Part shown: one piece after another, positions 28,207 through 37,635 of the stretch
Numbering within the stretch: position 1 is the stretch's first letter
How the letters are laid out: each line of letters begins with the position of its first letter
Assembly (NCBI GenBank): GCA_002721615.1
Contig: PBKW01000012.1
Location: 79,511-143,510 of the forward strand
Origin: Chloroflexota bacterium
GTDB lineage: Bacteria > Chloroflexota > Dehalococcoidia > Lucifugimonadales > Lucifugimonadaceae
Length of the DNA stretch: 64,000 bases
Direction: 5' to 3'
Made by a program: the position numbers and the translations under genes
Notes under the pieces: generated by a model
The model's database searches: none
The model's input: the letters and a program-made list of their open reading frames with translations, nothing else
What the model was told of the DNA's origin: nothing

Positions 28207-28234
28207 AAAAAGCCCCGTCCTTGCAAGGACGAGA
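28207..28234 (-). terminator. Intrinsic terminator of the T-box expression platform
   Basis: Reverse strand TCTCGTCCTTGCAAGGACGGGGCTTTTT; 16-bp perfect palindrome then T5. Confidence 0.85.
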
Positions 28235-28433
28235 CAAAAATCCCGCGGTACCACCTTAATTAGCTTACGCTCACTTATTTACAATTTTACGTTATTAACG
28301 TCTTACCCTAAATAATATTCAGGTAAGCCACTCCAGGGCGAGTTCTTAATCATCTTGGTACTAGGATCACACCATTTCCTAGATCTCTCTTACCATTACT
28401 ATTAATAGTACTCCCTTTCATAGTGTTTAAAAC
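28207..28433 (-). promoter_or_regulatory. T-box leader RNA upstream of ilvB (ilv-leu operon), probable leucine CUC specifier
   Basis: Reverse strand contains AGAGAG...GGTGTGA (Stem I apical), AGTA...GAA-CTC-GCC (loop E/specifier region), canonical AGGTGGTACCGCGG at 28256-28243, and a terminator hairpin CGTCCTTGCAAGGACG followed by a T-run. Confidence 0.93.
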
Positions 28434-28538: not shown

Positions 28539-29744
28539 TTATTTTAAGACAACTGAAGAAGTAATCTCGTTGATTAATTTTATTATAGAACTAGTGGACT
28601 TATCCCAAGTTAAATTTTTTGAATGACTTCTAGCATTTTTACCTAATTTTTTCCTTAACAAATCATTATTTAATAATATTTCGATTTTTTCCTGAAAGGG
28701 ACCTGGACATTTCCAATTAATTAAATAACCCGTTTTTCCATCTATCACAATGCTGGGTAACCCTCCTACTCTAGAAGCTACTACTGGCTTTCCACATGCA
28801 GCTGCTTCTAATGCAGCTAAACCAAAACTCTCATAATAAGATGGCAAAACACAAATATCTGAGCTTCCATAATAGTAGATGAGTTCATCTTGAGGAATTG
28901 ATCCTAGAAATAAAATTTTTTCTCTAACATTCAATTTAATAGCCAAATCTTTTAACCTTTTAATTTCTGGACTATTTCCTTCTCCACCTACTATAAAAAG
29001 TTGCACATCTAAGATTTCGATTGTCGCCATTACTTTAATAAGAATATCTATTCCTTTAAGTTTTTCGAGTCTTCCAACAAAAAGAATTATTCTTTTATCC
29101 AATGAAATATTAAGATAATTTCGGCAAAATTTTATATCTCTTTCTTGAAATTTTTTTATATTTACTCCTGGAGGTATAATAGATATTTTTTCTGGATCTA
29201 AATTATATAAAGATATTAAAGATTTTTTTTCATGATTAGACCATACAATAATATGGTCAACTTTTTTCGCAATTAAAGATTCATATTTAGATCTTATTGG
29301 AAGAAATTCATCCAATGGAAAAGCTTTTTGTTTTAAATCATTAAGAGTGTGAAAACTTGTAACATGTGGAACATGAAATTGTTTAGAAAGATCATTCCCT
29401 ACAATTCCAGACAACCAATAATGACTTGAGAAAATATCATAAAAATTATTTTCATGCTCAATAATTTTTATTACTTTTTTTGTAAAAATATTTATGTAAG
29501 AAAAGAGTTCTTTCTTTTCAGCATCTACTGGTCCAGAATCTATATGTATCAATCTCAAATTATCATTAATATTAATTATTTGAGGATCTTTAGGATCATG
29601 ACGTCTAGTAAAAATATCAACTTTATTTCCAAAATCAGCAATTCTTTTTGCAGTTTCTAAAAGGTAAACATTCATACCTCCAACATCTTTTATTCCTGCT
29701 TGTCTAATTGGACACCCATGAACACTTATAATTCCTAAATTCAT
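28539..29744 (-). CDS. GT4-family glycosyltransferase (MshA-like N-terminus)
   Basis: SVHGCPIRQAGIKDVGGMNVYLLETAKRIADFGNKVDIFTRR; FVGRLEKLKGIDILI; PSYYESFGLAALEAAACGKPVVAS. Confidence 0.9.
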   Translation of the reverse strand: MNLGIISVHGCPIRQAGIKDVGGMNVYLLETAKRIADFGNKVDIFTRRHDPKDPQIININDNLRLIHIDSGPVDAEKKELFSYINIFTKKVIKIIEHENNFYDIFSSHYWLSGIVGNDLSKQFHVPHVTSFHTLNDLKQKAFPLDEFLPIRSKYESLIAKKVDHIIVWSNHEKKSLISLYNLDPEKISIIPPGVNIKKFQERDIKFCRNYLNISLDKRIILFVGRLEKLKGIDILIKVMATIEILDVQLFIVGGEGNSPEIKRLKDLAIKLNVREKILFLGSIPQDELIYYYGSSDICVLPSYYESFGLAALEAAACGKPVVASRVGGLPSIVIDGKTGYLINWKCPGPFQEKIEILLNNDLLRKKLGKNARSHSKNLTWDKSTSSIIKLINEITSSVVLK

Positions 29745-29748
29745 TAGA

Positions 29749-30729
29749 TTAATCTGTAATTTTTACTGAATAAATTTTTTTGTCTGAAGCCCCTAAACGA
29801 TATTTATAATCTTCTGATCCTCTTAGAAAATCAAAAACTTTGATTCCATTTTCAATACAAATTTTAATATTTTCGATATGATTTATTAGACCTATTGATA
29901 GAAATTTATAATCAAAATCATATCCTGAATTATAAAGTAGATTTGTATTACCATTATTAAAATTTATAGAACCCGCAGAAAGATTATTGTTAACCTTAGT
30001 AATCATTAATCTTAATAATTTTTTTTCCGAAAATACTTCTACAATTTTTCTAAAAAAATCTTCTCTTTGAGTAGTAAAAAATTCTCTCTTCTTTTCATCT
30101 TGTTTCATTAACTCTATTAAATCATTCATTATTGGGATAGTGTCATTTTTGTGAGAATATTCTAAAGTTTCAACTTTTTCTTGATCTTCAATTCTACGTA
30201 ATTTTCTTTTAATTTCATGACGATTCTTTTTACTTAATAAAGACAAGAAATTATCCCACGATGAAGGAAGATAAATAAAAGGAGCCACATCTTCTTCAAT
30301 AATTTCTATTGATGAATATATTTTATCCTGTTTCAATGTTTCTAAAATTTTCAAAGTAGAAGAAGCTTCTTGAATTGACTCGAATTGAATTCTGTTAGCT
30401 TTCAGATGATTAAAACAGTAATCCAAAAAATCTGTAATAAAATTCTTAGAGATTTTTTCTTTAAAAATAAAATCTTGATAATCAAACAAATCTCTACTCC
30501 CGAGAAAAGTTATTAATTTGTCTTCTTTTATAATAGGAGCAATAACTGATTTTCCAGAATCATATACAAATAACAAATTCTTTTTACTGTCCTGAAAAAC
30601 ATCCCACCATATTTTTTTTATATCTAAAGAATTAAAAAATATATTATTTTGATAAAAATTATCCTTTAATATTTCTTCCCATTGTATTTGAACTTCTCGA
30701 AAAGATTCCAAATGATTAAGTAAATTCAT
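29749..30729 (-). CDS. GNAT/FemAB-like acetyltransferase (Acetyltransf_6-like)
   Basis: LSKKNRHEIKRKLRRIE ... NTNLLYNSGYDFDYKFLSIGLINHIENIKICIENGIKVFDFLRGSEDYKYRLGA. Confidence 0.8.
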   Translation of the reverse strand: MNLLNHLESFREVQIQWEEILKDNFYQNNIFFNSLDIKKIWWDVFQDSKKNLLFVYDSGKSVIAPIIKEDKLITFLGSRDLFDYQDFIFKEKISKNFITDFLDYCFNHLKANRIQFESIQEASSTLKILETLKQDKIYSSIEIIEEDVAPFIYLPSSWDNFLSLLSKKNRHEIKRKLRRIEDQEKVETLEYSHKNDTIPIMNDLIELMKQDEKKREFFTTQREDFFRKIVEVFSEKKLLRLMITKVNNNLSAGSINFNNGNTNLLYNSGYDFDYKFLSIGLINHIENIKICIENGIKVFDFLRGSEDYKYRLGASDKKIYSVKITD

Positions 30730-32962: not shown

Positions 32963-33508
32963 TTATTTTTCAGAATCAGAAGTTACGTCTTTTTCAGCTT
33001 TAACCTCTTGATCAGAATCAGAAGTTACGTCTTTTTCAGCTTTAACCTTTTGATCAGAATCAGAAGCTACGTCTTTTTCAGCTTTAACCTTTTGATCAGA
33101 ATCAGAAGTTACGTCTTTTTCAGCTTTAACCTTTTGATCTTTTTCTTCAAGATCTCGATTCTTTGTATCTACATTTTCATTTGGTTTTTCAATTTTTACT
33201 TGATCTGCTTTTTCTATTTTATCTTGTTTATAAATAACAACTTTGGTATTTAGAGAATGATTAGCTGATAAAGGTAAAAGTGCCATATGTCTAGCTCTTT
33301 TTATTGCTACAGTTAAACTTCTCTGACATTTTGCACAAGTACCAGTTCTTCCTGCAGATTCTATTTTTCCTCTATCGGAAATATATTTCTTTAATAATCC
33401 AATATTTTTATAATCTAAAAAGTCGATTTTACACAACAAACAAGCCTTTCTTACAAAAGGTTTTTCAAATTTATTCCTAGAGGAGTATTTTGTGTTTTTT
33501 GTAGTCAT
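32963..33508 (-). CDS. rpsR: 30S ribosomal protein S18 with a repetitive charged C-terminal extension
   Basis: [61 protein letters not shown]; rpsF-ssb-rpsR order. Confidence 0.92.
32972..33139. repeat. 42-bp tandem repeat, 4 units, in the rpsR 3' end
   Basis: Unit agaatcagaagttacgtctttttcagctttaaccttttgatc at 32972, 33014, 33056 and 33098, with only isolated substitutions; encodes (Q-[KE]-V-K-A-E-K-D-V-[TA]-S-D-S-[DE]). Confidence 0.95.
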
Positions 33509-34449: not shown

Positions 34450-35703
34450 TCAATCATCAATACCTGGAACATGAAACTCTAATGCCAATGATAAAGCTTT
34501 TTCCTTAATTTTTTCCAATTTTTTATCATTTTCTTTGAATTTTATGGCCTCATGAATCAATTCTGAAATTAAAAGCATTTCTTTTTCTTTCATCCCTCTA
34601 CTAGTCACCGCGGGGGTTCCAATTCTTATTCCACTAGTTACTCTAGGGGATAATTCATCATAAGGTATAGAATTCTTATTTATAATTATACCAACTTTTT
34701 TAAGTATTGTTTCTACCTCTAATCCAGTACACCCTCTGCTAGTAACATCAATCAAAACTAGATGATTATCTGTGCCACCAGATATTACTCTGAAACCTAA
34801 CTCCTTTAGACTATTAGATAAAACTTTTGAATTTAAAATTATCTGATAGCAATAAGTTGTAAACTCTGGCTTTAAAGCTTCGTTAAAAGCTATAGCCTTA
34901 GCAGCTATATTATTCATAAAAGGTCCTCCTTGAATACCTGGGAAAACTGACCTATCAATACTTGTAGCAAATTTTGAATCACACATAATTATTGCTCCTC
35001 TAGGACCTCTAAGAGTTTTATGTGTAGTAGAAGTTGTAATATCAGCTACATTAATAGAAGAAGGATGTAATCCTGTGGCTATAAGTCCAGAAATATGAGC
35101 TACATCTGCTAATAAAATTGCATTAACTTCTCTAGCAATTTCTTTAAATTTTTTAAAATTTATTGATCGAGGATAAGCACTAGCTCCACAAACAATCATT
35201 TTAGGCTTAAATTCTTCAGCCTTCTGAAATACTCTCTCATAATCAATTATTTCAGTTTCTGGTTCTACTCCATAGTAATCAAATTCGTACAATTTTCCTG
35301 AAAAGTTTACTGATGATCCATGACTAAGATGTCCCCCTTGATCTAATCTCATTCCTAAAATTTTATCCCCAGGTTTCAATAATCCCGAATAAACCGCCAT
35401 ATTTGCTTGAGTTCCACTGTGAGGTTGAACATTTACATGATCACAGTTAAAAAGTTTCTTAGCTCTTTCAATAGCAAGATTTTCAGCTACATCAACATTT
35501 TCACAACCTGCATAATATCTCTTACCTGAATAACCTTCTGCATATTTATTTGAAAAAATTGAACCCGTAACATTTAAAACTAATCTAGAAGGATAATTTT
35601 CAGAAGCTATCAAAATGATTTCATCTCTAATTCTTTTTTCTTCTTCTTCAAAAGCAGAGAATATCTGAGCATCTAATTTTTTTAGCGATGATTTAAAATT
35701 CAT
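34450..35703 (-). CDS. glyA: Serine hydroxymethyltransferase
   Basis: LIASENYPS; NKYAEGYSGKRYYAGCENVD; TTSTTHKTLRGPRGAIIM (PLP Lys). Confidence 0.96.
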   Translation of the reverse strand: MNFKSSLKKLDAQIFSAFEEEEKRIRDEIILIASENYPSRLVLNVTGSIFSNKYAEGYSGKRYYAGCENVDVAENLAIERAKKLFNCDHVNVQPHSGTQANMAVYSGLLKPGDKILGMRLDQGGHLSHGSSVNFSGKLYEFDYYGVEPETEIIDYERVFQKAEEFKPKMIVCGASAYPRSINFKKFKEIAREVNAILLADVAHISGLIATGLHPSSINVADITTSTTHKTLRGPRGAIIMCDSKFATSIDRSVFPGIQGGPFMNNIAAKAIAFNEALKPEFTTYCYQIILNSKVLSNSLKELGFRVISGGTDNHLVLIDVTSRGCTGLEVETILKKVGIIINKNSIPYDELSPRVTSGIRIGTPAVTSRGMKEKEMLLISELIHEAIKFKENDKKLEKIKEKALSLALEFHVPGIDD

Positions 35704-35794: not shown

Positions 35795-36676
35795 ATGAAT
35801 TTTGTTGATTTAAACGGTCATATTCTCCATGAATATGATCCTAACATAAAAAACATAAATGAGACTTTAGAAATTATTAAAAAAGCTTCAAATATTGGTA
35901 TTGAAACAATCATTGAAACACCTAATAATGTATTTTTGCATAAAGTTGAATCCACTGAAATTCAAGAAAAAATAGATAACTTAACATCTTTTTTAACTGA
36001 ACTAGAGATTAATAACATGAATTTATTATTAGGATCAGAAATAAATCTAGATATACAAATGCCTGCAAATATTTCATTAGGCAAAACATTAACAATTAAT
36101 TCTACAAAATATCTATTAATTAAATTTCCATATTTAGGACTACCTGAAAATTTTGAGTCAACTCTAAGTCTTCTAAATATTATGGGAATCAACCCTATAC
36201 TACTAAACTTAGAAAAAAATAATTATATTCAAAAAAACCCAAAAATTATTTTTGAACTTATAAAAGAAAATTGCCTGATACAATTATCGTCATCAAGTTT
36301 ATTAAATTCTTCAAATGAGAATGTTAGAAGTTTTTCACAATTCCTTATAAAAAATCAATTAGTTCATACGGTTTCAGGATTTGTGAATTCCCAAATTTCA
36401 GATATTGAAAAAAACCTAGAAGAGATAATTGATTTTATTGAATCTTCATCAAATATTCATACTGTAGAATTACTTTTGTACACTAATCCAAATTTAATAG
36501 CTTATGGTAATGATCCCAGAACAGAAATAGAAATAATAAAACCCACAAAAATTAAATCATTTTTTAAATATCCTATTCAAAAAATCCCTACTTTAATAGA
36601 ATATTTTCATTGGAAATTATTAAGCATAATTAAATATTTAAAAATACAAATTAATAATTTAAAATATAGAAATTAA
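35795..36676 (+). CDS. CpsB/YwqE-like PHP-domain protein, probable pseudoenzyme
   Basis: Colinear with CpsB-type tyrosine phosphatases: FVDLNGHIL ~ MIDxHxHIL, IIETPNN ~ IxATPHH, LLGSEINLDI ~ xxGAEIYLD, GINPILLNLEK ~ GITPVIAHIER, LVHTVSGFVNS ~ LVHVVASDMHN. Confidence 0.65.
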   Translation: MNFVDLNGHILHEYDPNIKNINETLEIIKKASNIGIETIIETPNNVFLHKVESTEIQEKIDNLTSFLTELEINNMNLLLGSEINLDIQMPANISLGKTLTINSTKYLLIKFPYLGLPENFESTLSLLNIMGINPILLNLEKNNYIQKNPKIIFELIKENCLIQLSSSSLLNSSNENVRSFSQFLIKNQLVHTVSGFVNSQISDIEKNLEEIIDFIESSSNIHTVELLLYTNPNLIAYGNDPRTEIEIIKPTKIKSFFKYPIQKIPTLIEYFHWKLLSIIKYLKIQINNLKYRN

Positions 36677-37635
36677 TTTATTTCTACCTGGGTACACCAA
36701 TCAAAATAATCTTCTCTTTTTCCAGTTACTACATCAAAATATATTTTCTGTAATTTTTGTGTGATTTCACCTTTATTCCCATCTCCAATTTTTCGATTGT
36801 CTAAGTTTCCCACACTAGTAATATGAGCTGCAGTTCCAGTTAAAAATATTTCATCTGCCAAATACAATTCGCTTCTCTGAATCTTCCTTTTTTTCACTTC
36901 TATACCCAATTCTCTCCTAGCTATTTGTATTACAGAATCTCGTGTAATCCCTAACAAACAATTATCAGTCTCAGCAGGAGTAATAATTTCTCCACCTGAA
37001 ATCATAAAAAGATTTTCTCCACTTCCTTCAGAAACAGTTCCTTCATCATTAAGTAATATAGCTTCGTCATAACCCCCTAAAATTGCTTCAGTTTTAGCTA
37101 ATATACTATTTGTATATAACCCAGATAATTTCACTCCTGTAGGCATCATAGAATCATTAGGTCTTCTCCAACTTGAAGTTTGACAATTAATAGCTTTATC
37201 ATTATCAATATATCCACCAAATGGAATAATAATTAAACTAAAATTACTAGATAATTCATGTAATTTTAAATTAGCAACTAATTCTTCGCTTTTAAATGCT
37301 AAAGGCCTAATATATACATCTTGAAGATACCCACATTTTTTTAATAAACTAATGGTAATTTCAATATAATCATCTACAGAAAAAGTGTTGATTTCATCCT
37401 TTATTTGAAGATCTTTAGGAGGAAAAATCTTTAAAATATTACAACCTCTTATCAACCTTTCATAATGTTCCTTAAGCCGAAACACAACCATTTTCCGAGA
37501 ATCATCATTCCAATTTCCTCTAATTCCTTCAAACACAGCGGTTCCATAATGTAATGCATGTGTCATTATGCCAACTTTTGCTTCTTCTAATGGAATTTGT
37601 TTTCCACTTAAAAAGGCCCAAGGCTGAGATCCCAT
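36673..37635 (-). CDS. ilvE: Branched-chain amino acid aminotransferase
   Basis: THALHYGTAVFEGIRGNW; IYIRP-like VYIRPLAFKS; SGLYTNSILAKTEAILGGYDEAILLN; VSEGSGENLF. Confidence 0.94.
   Translation of the reverse strand: MGSQPWAFLSGKQIPLEEAKVGIMTHALHYGTAVFEGIRGNWNDDSRKMVVFRLKEHYERLIRGCNILKIFPPKDLQIKDEINTFSVDDYIEITISLLKKCGYLQDVYIRPLAFKSEELVANLKLHELSSNFSLIIIPFGGYIDNDKAINCQTSSWRRPNDSMMPTGVKLSGLYTNSILAKTEAILGGYDEAILLNDEGTVSEGSGENLFMISGGEIITPAETDNCLLGITRDSVIQIARRELGIEVKKRKIQRSELYLADEIFLTGTAAHITSVGNLDNRKIGDGNKGEITQKLQKIYFDVVTGKREDYFDWCTQVEIN

Follow-up and report, generated by a model that had tools for sequence, protein, structure and literature searches.

A free-standing PHP protein of a SAR202 bacterium, probably a catalytically dead pseudophosphatase that arose at its present locus from an enzyme of the CpsB/YwqE type

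Can a metal-dependent phosphatase that has been stripped of its metal ligands be kept for something other than catalysis, or is such a gene simply on its way out? The question is raised by a locus in the window, the whole stretch of 64,000 nucleotides (29.6% GC) analysed here, which comes from a 1.46 Mb genome (G000; 27 contigs, 89.6% complete) assigned to Chloroflexota; Dehalococcoidia; SAR202; Ca. Lucifugimonadaceae. An earlier note had described there a full-length frame between glyA and ilvE, and its coordinates proved exact: the frame is complete, from an ATG at 35795 to a stop codon ending at 36676. A gap of 91 bases separates it from the divergent glyA, and it overlaps the convergent ilvE by 4 bases.

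34450-35703, minus strand: glyA, divergent neighbour and one boundary of the conserved slot (open reading frame and synteny)
35795-36676, plus strand: degenerate CpsB/YwqE-type PHP protein of 293 aa (PF19567, PDB matches, AlphaFold2/Foldseek)
36673-37635, minus strand: ilvE-type aminotransferase, convergent, the other boundary of the slot (open reading frame and synteny)

The family to which the protein belongs is clear. It matches PF19567 (CpsB_CapC) over profile positions 1-232 of 234 with 99.8 bits (E 2e-28), the curated cut-off being 27 bits, which is also exceeded by its orthologues in three congeneric SAR202 species (G001-G003). Noise aside, the sole sequence matches in the PDB are YwqE (3qy6, E 3.7e-23) and Cps4B (2wjd, E 1.3e-13), and no matches were obtained with the protein as query against collections of genome contigs and viral contigs. 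An AlphaFold2 model, guided by an alignment of 61 homologues that mostly have complete sites, reached pLDDT 89.5 and pTM 0.83, and Foldseek ranked 3qy6 (E 8.4e-16, TM normalized to the target 0.88), 2wjd (TM to the target 0.85) and 3qy8 at the top, with weaker matches to archaeal RNase P subunits and a histidinol phosphatase below them. Single-sequence modelling fails (pLDDT 37.5), so that the evidence for the fold consists of sequence homology and of a homologue-guided model. On this basis a PHP fold is confidently predicted, namely a distorted alpha/beta barrel with the ligand positions at the strand ends, as the earlier note had held of the scaffold. The protein also carries a C-terminal extension (36512-36673, approximately residues 240-293, with a predicted helix at 267-290) that is not found in its congeners; basic, Trp-rich tails are seen on the homologues of genera g12, g9 and g4 of the family as well.

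In Cps4B, three metals are bound by nine residues, M1 by H5, H7, E80 and D199, M2 by E80, E108 and H136, and M3 by D14, H42 and H201, while the phosphate is bound by R139 and R206 (PMC2777267). The equivalent positions in the window protein, all on the plus strand and assigned by alignment, are the following.

35813-35815, plus strand: N7, at Cps4B His5 (M1)
35819-35821, plus strand: H9, at Cps4B His7 (M1), retained
35840-35842, plus strand: P16, at Cps4B Asp14 (M3); all four species of the genus have Pro here
35924-35926, plus strand: N44, at Cps4B His42 (M3)
36038-36040, plus strand: E82, at Cps4B Glu80 (bridging M1 and M2), retained
36122-36124, plus strand: K110, at Cps4B Glu108 (M2); Lys or Arg in all four species of the genus
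36206-36208, plus strand: N138, at Cps4B His136 (M2); all four species of the genus have Asn here
36215-36217, plus strand: K141, at Cps4B Arg139 (phosphate binding)
36380-36382, plus strand: F196, at Cps4B Asp199 (M1); Phe or Ile in the genus
36386-36388, plus strand: N198, at Cps4B His201 (M3)
36404-36406, plus strand: I204, at Cps4B Arg206 (phosphate binding)

Read in the order H5, H7, D14, H42, E80, E108, H136, D199 and H201, the site has become N, H, P, N, E, K, N, F and N; since only H9 and E82 are left, two ligands of nine, M1, M2 and M3 are all incomplete, and the two arginines that bind phosphate have given way to other residues (R139 to K141, R206 to I204). The serial alteration of the ligand motifs that had been reported is thus real, with seven ligands changed, but the list then given lacked the D14 to Pro and E108 to Lys changes, the loss of both arginines and the surviving His and Glu. 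In a sample of 62 sequences, which was partly chosen by motifs containing H5, H7 and D14 and is biased for these three, the full set of nine positions is kept in every one of the 52 homologues that come from outside the family's altered genera (13 with the conservative change E80D), and the loss in the window protein therefore exceeds chance. With D14, H42, E108, H136, D199 and H201 gone, the tri-metal centre would be unable to form, and with it the ancestral hydrolysis of phosphoesters would be lost; the barrel could have been kept as a binding or scaffold module, in which the lysines now standing at the old E108 and R139 positions are candidates for binding an anionic ligand where the metals once sat.

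Is this copy alone in its condition? Each of G001, G002 and G003 has an intact orthologue in the same glyA-ilvE slot with none or one of the ligands (none in G001 and G002), oriented against ilvE and glyA as in the window genome, and all four share the gene order enolase, RNase PH, panE, lipoprotein, ilvE, PHP, glyA, rpsF, ssb and rpsR. The last of these, rpsR, shows in the window four near-perfect 42-bp tandem repeats (32970-33139) that make up the acidic and lysine-rich C-terminal tail of bS18. Six other congeneric genomes gave no match, but they are 55-76% complete and their silence is no evidence of loss; the contig of G009 stops just past glyA. The alignment is uncertain at R139 and R206 in G001-G003, and at H42 in genus g6. 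Several states, P16, K or R at 110, N138, F or I at 196, and G195, are common to the four species and point to an old common condition rather than to scatter. The gene is therefore no isolated pseudogene, as the earlier note had maintained, and the genus does not present the picture of one decaying copy among close orthologues that keep their histidines; these are kept in genera of the family that are further removed. The same orthologues exclude a random open frame misread as a gene. The window assembly is indeed fragmented, and a sequencing or assembly artefact might be suspected for this reason, but changes of the same class recur in the same place in the assemblies of three other species and in g6, and the family match has an E-value of 2e-28, which makes such an explanation extremely improbable.

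The protein could also have acquired a new chemistry, acting as a hydrolase or isomerase with one metal or none through H9, E82 and the new lysines. Both residues are kept in the window protein, and the replacement of E108 by Lys or Arg and of H136 by Asn is common to the genus; H9 and E82, by contrast, are not kept in all of the sister species, G001 and G002 being devoid of any ligand, so that the genus shows no conserved set of acid and base residues, and we regard this possibility as very unlikely.

The feature that had first drawn attention, a repeated replacement of His by Asn taken as the signal of a retained role, did not survive closer comparison. All four lost histidines have become Asn in the window protein, but at these sites the congeners carry K, N, E or L, and H136 to Asn is the only such change common to the four species. 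Among the conserved histidines of nine neighbouring genes in the same species, 60 of 78 are kept and 18 are replaced, eight of them by Asn, the commonest substitute in the neighbouring genes of the genus; under this spectrum four Asn out of four have a chance of about 0.04 (0.44 to the fourth power). Asn makes up 12% of the window protein at a GC content of about 30%. The literal run is specific to the window sequence, and a designed pattern of His-to-Asn change is rejected as the main signal; the run mostly reflects base composition and codon adjacency, being largely expected at 30% GC.

Whether the altered gene is maintained is better judged from substitution rates. The orthologues of G001-G003 are 40-43% identical to each other with omega of 0.19-0.21, at synonymous sites near saturation, and judging from these values of about 0.2 the gene is under purifying selection in the sister species. 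Comparisons of the window gene with the same orthologues gave 25-31% identity and omega of 0.40-0.75, again at nearly saturated sites, against 0.13-0.17 for ilvE in the comparison with the congeners. Comparable divergence is seen in further rapidly evolving genes of the locus (lipoprotein 27-31%, panE 33-35% and rpsF 34-39% identity). As the nearest relatives are only 25-31% identical, selection on the window species' own branch is not cleanly demonstrated. Of the Asn substitutions, whose fixation under purifying selection the earlier note had proposed to check by dN/dS, N138 alone is common to the genus; the signal of purifying selection on the gene is seen among the sisters and is weak in pairs that include the window species. 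The ratio of PHP to ilvE distances, 4.1 in g1 (the genus of the window) and 4.4 in g6 versus 3.0-3.6 in g5, g12 and g11, suggests that the gene evolves at most modestly faster in g1 and g6 than in the less degenerate genera.

The loss of ligands is graded across Ca. Lucifugimonadaceae. Complete sites are found in all 12 homologues sampled from other families of the order, and within the family in g4, g7 and g9 (11 sequences). In the ligand order used above, g2 reads HHCHESHNH, g11 reads LHDHE(S/T)RDH in six of seven sequences (with M for L in the seventh) and g5 reads (K/N)HDH(S/T)EHEH in all four, whereas g12 lacks E80 and has D199E in 18 of 18. Three or four ligands are left in g6 (8/8) and none to two in g1 (4/4); in g3, g8 and g10 the gene is absent from the locus, where PIG-L and PAP2 are still present. 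The cultured Ca. Lucifugimonas marina JH1073 has a partly dismantled copy with six of the nine ligands. Sequences of g11 and g12 retain the whole of M3 together with both arginines while M1/M2 is broken, and binding of phosphate without binuclear catalysis is conceivable there. A single origin of the losses in g1 and g6 finds no support in a tree of nine genes of the locus, whose backbone is weak (support 26-57), and the ligand sets of the two genera differ; hence their losses are likely, though not proven, to be independent.

Such a series invites the view of slow decay, in which the hydrolase became useless after streamlining or a change of habitat, its ligands drifted and the gene was then deleted as in g3, g8 and g10, so that the genus of the window would be at a late stage. 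The progression from a complete site through 6-7, 3-4 and 0-2 ligands to absence of the gene is what this would produce, the linked PIG-L and PAP2 genes have already been lost in the window genus, and omega is high in pairs that include the window species. Against it, members of a genus share one ligand signature despite having diverged for long (g11 7/7, g12 18/18, g6 8/8), omega is about 0.05-0.2 for pairs in g11 and g12 and among G001-G003 (0.05-0.16 in g11, where computable), and partial loss is also met in genomes of 2-4 Mb (g11, g12 and g2). Furthermore, neutral simulation at the observed pairwise divergences produced on average 11-17 in-frame stops and never zero, and the real frames have none. 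Absence from the locus in three genera shows that the gene is dispensable; unused genes should go quickly from small, streamlined genomes (PMC11994032), and at 1.46 Mb and 29.6% window GC this favours retention. We consider decay possible, if rather unlikely, and the most probable reading of the gene is that of a retained, catalytically dead PHP pseudophosphatase, descended in place from a metal-dependent phosphatase of the CpsB/YwqE type. The earlier note's preference for a retained non-catalytic role over decay is accordingly upheld by the intact degenerate orthologues, the purifying selection among the sisters and the ligand losses that are fixed within other genera, and weakened by the unclean signal on the gene's own branch.

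In which setting could a pseudophosphatase of this kind work? The absence of a kinase partner nearby, pointed out before, extends to the whole window assembly (89.6% complete), in which the BY-kinase model TIGR01007 gave weak Walker-type matches, the best with 32 bits against a cut-off of 108; none of the genomes of the genus has a BY-kinase above the cut-off, and a capsule/BY-kinase reading is rejected on this ground. The classical pair does occur within the family: in G064, a relative from g5, an additional CpsB paralogue whose site is complete stands beside a BY-kinase in a 788-aa frame (L092, contig 37), apparently in a separate polysaccharide island. Two genes of the same super-locus as PHP offer another context, the glycosyltransferase among them lying six kilobases from the PHP gene.

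28539-29744, minus strand: MshA-like GT4 glycosyltransferase (TIGR03449, 325.8 bits, below the cut-off of 462.5)
29749-30729, minus strand: FemAB/GNAT-like acyltransferase adjoining the glycosyltransferase (PF13480)

This pair recurs jointly in other SAR202 families and may belong to an undescribed glycoside or thiol pathway. In the same stretch, a T-box leader (RF00230, 131 bits, 28222-28430, minus strand) lies directly upstream of an apparent ilvB-ilvN-ilvC operon. The MshA-like glycosyltransferase is present in 50 of 60 relatives, with matches below the equivalog cut-off, and inositol-1-phosphate synthase in 52 of 60, the window genome included. Beyond the super-locus shared in Lucifugimonadaceae, seven genomes of other families have the glycosyltransferase beside the PHP gene (G038, G049, G051, G055 and G056) or about 1.8 kb away (G043 and G059), and G059 (L039) has PHP, PIG-L, an MshD-like GNAT and the glycosyltransferase side by side. 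In the rest of the family's genera the slot also holds a PIG-L deacetylase on the glyA side and a PAP2 phosphatase and a membrane protein on the ilvE side; the window genus has lost all of these from the slot, and g6 keeps PIG-L. In the making of mycothiol, a phosphatase acts between MshA and MshB (PMC4360819), a step which the PHP enzyme of this locus would fit, and the linkage points to an ancestral context in a glycosyl/inositol-phosphate pathway. The linked glycosyltransferase, with the ancestral PIG-L and PAP2, fits a glyco-phosphate role better than tyrosine signalling in capsule synthesis; a strict role as pathway phosphatase is weakened by g3, g8 and g10, which keep the other genes without PHP. 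The pathway of mycothiol proper is rejected, as all matches to MshC (TIGR03447) among the relatives are under the curated cut-off and the model also matches in 14 of 14 controls, so that cysteinyl-tRNA synthetases seem to be what it picks up. Among other SAR202 families, several (G038, G039, G041, G044-G046, G050-G053 and G055), though not that of the window, have a second CysS/MshC-like match in a frame of 728-859 aa, longer than a normal CysS and possibly a fusion protein.

The likely setting of the pseudophosphatase would then be the surrounding glycosyl and phospho-sugar pathway, with its MshA-like glycosyltransferase, its FemAB-like acyltransferase and, ancestrally, PIG-L and PAP2. A bolder version, quite unlikely to hold as a whole, is that in SAR202 group I the PHP phosphatase of an MshA/PIG-L-type pathway repeatedly and independently became a regulator or scaffold that binds a phospho-ligand, with the tri-metal centre taken apart in a different place in each genus, and that the complete-site orthologues are phosphatases of sugar or inositol phosphates (candidates for an MshA2-type step, the dephosphorylation of GlcNAc-inositol-phosphate) and not of phosphotyrosine. 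Were the sugar-phosphate role true, the default annotation of CpsB_CapC proteins as tyrosine phosphatases would be affected, and the linkage to the MshA-like glycosyltransferase and PIG-L suggests that sugar phosphates may be the substrates of members encoded away from capsule operons. One locus ranging from nine ligands to none is a natural experiment on a metallo-phosphatase that loses catalysis while the fold stays, and with six of nine ligands in the cultured JH1073 the series is open to laboratory work.

Four known systems are worth comparing. The PHP tyrosine phosphatases CpsB, Cps4B and YwqE (PF19567) have the sequence family and the predicted barrel in common with the window protein, which differs in having lost seven of nine metal ligands and both phosphate arginines, in a genome with no detected BY-kinase and at a locus that is not a capsule operon; free-standing inactive members of this family did not come up in searches of open-access papers. 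Pathways of the MshA/MshB type, as for mycothiol and bacillithiol, resemble the locus in the nearness of PHP to an MshA-like glycosyltransferase, with PIG-L adjoining in the family and in G059, and differ in that MshC is not detected here above the cut-off and some genera have the glycosyltransferase and PIG-L without PHP. The weak fold matches to archaeal RNase P subunits (6k0a_C, E 4.7e-4; 2czv_A, E 9.4e-4), which we take to be Rpp30, recall another barrel used as a subunit, with no sequence relationship detected; Rpp30 is a barrel-type, non-catalytic subunit of RNase P in an RNA-protein complex. A further parallel is the PHP domain of E. coli DNA polymerase III alpha, which lost metal ligands and kept its fold and a structural role (PMC3666897); that domain belongs to another PHP family and is fused within a polymerase, whereas the window protein is a free-standing member of the CpsB family.
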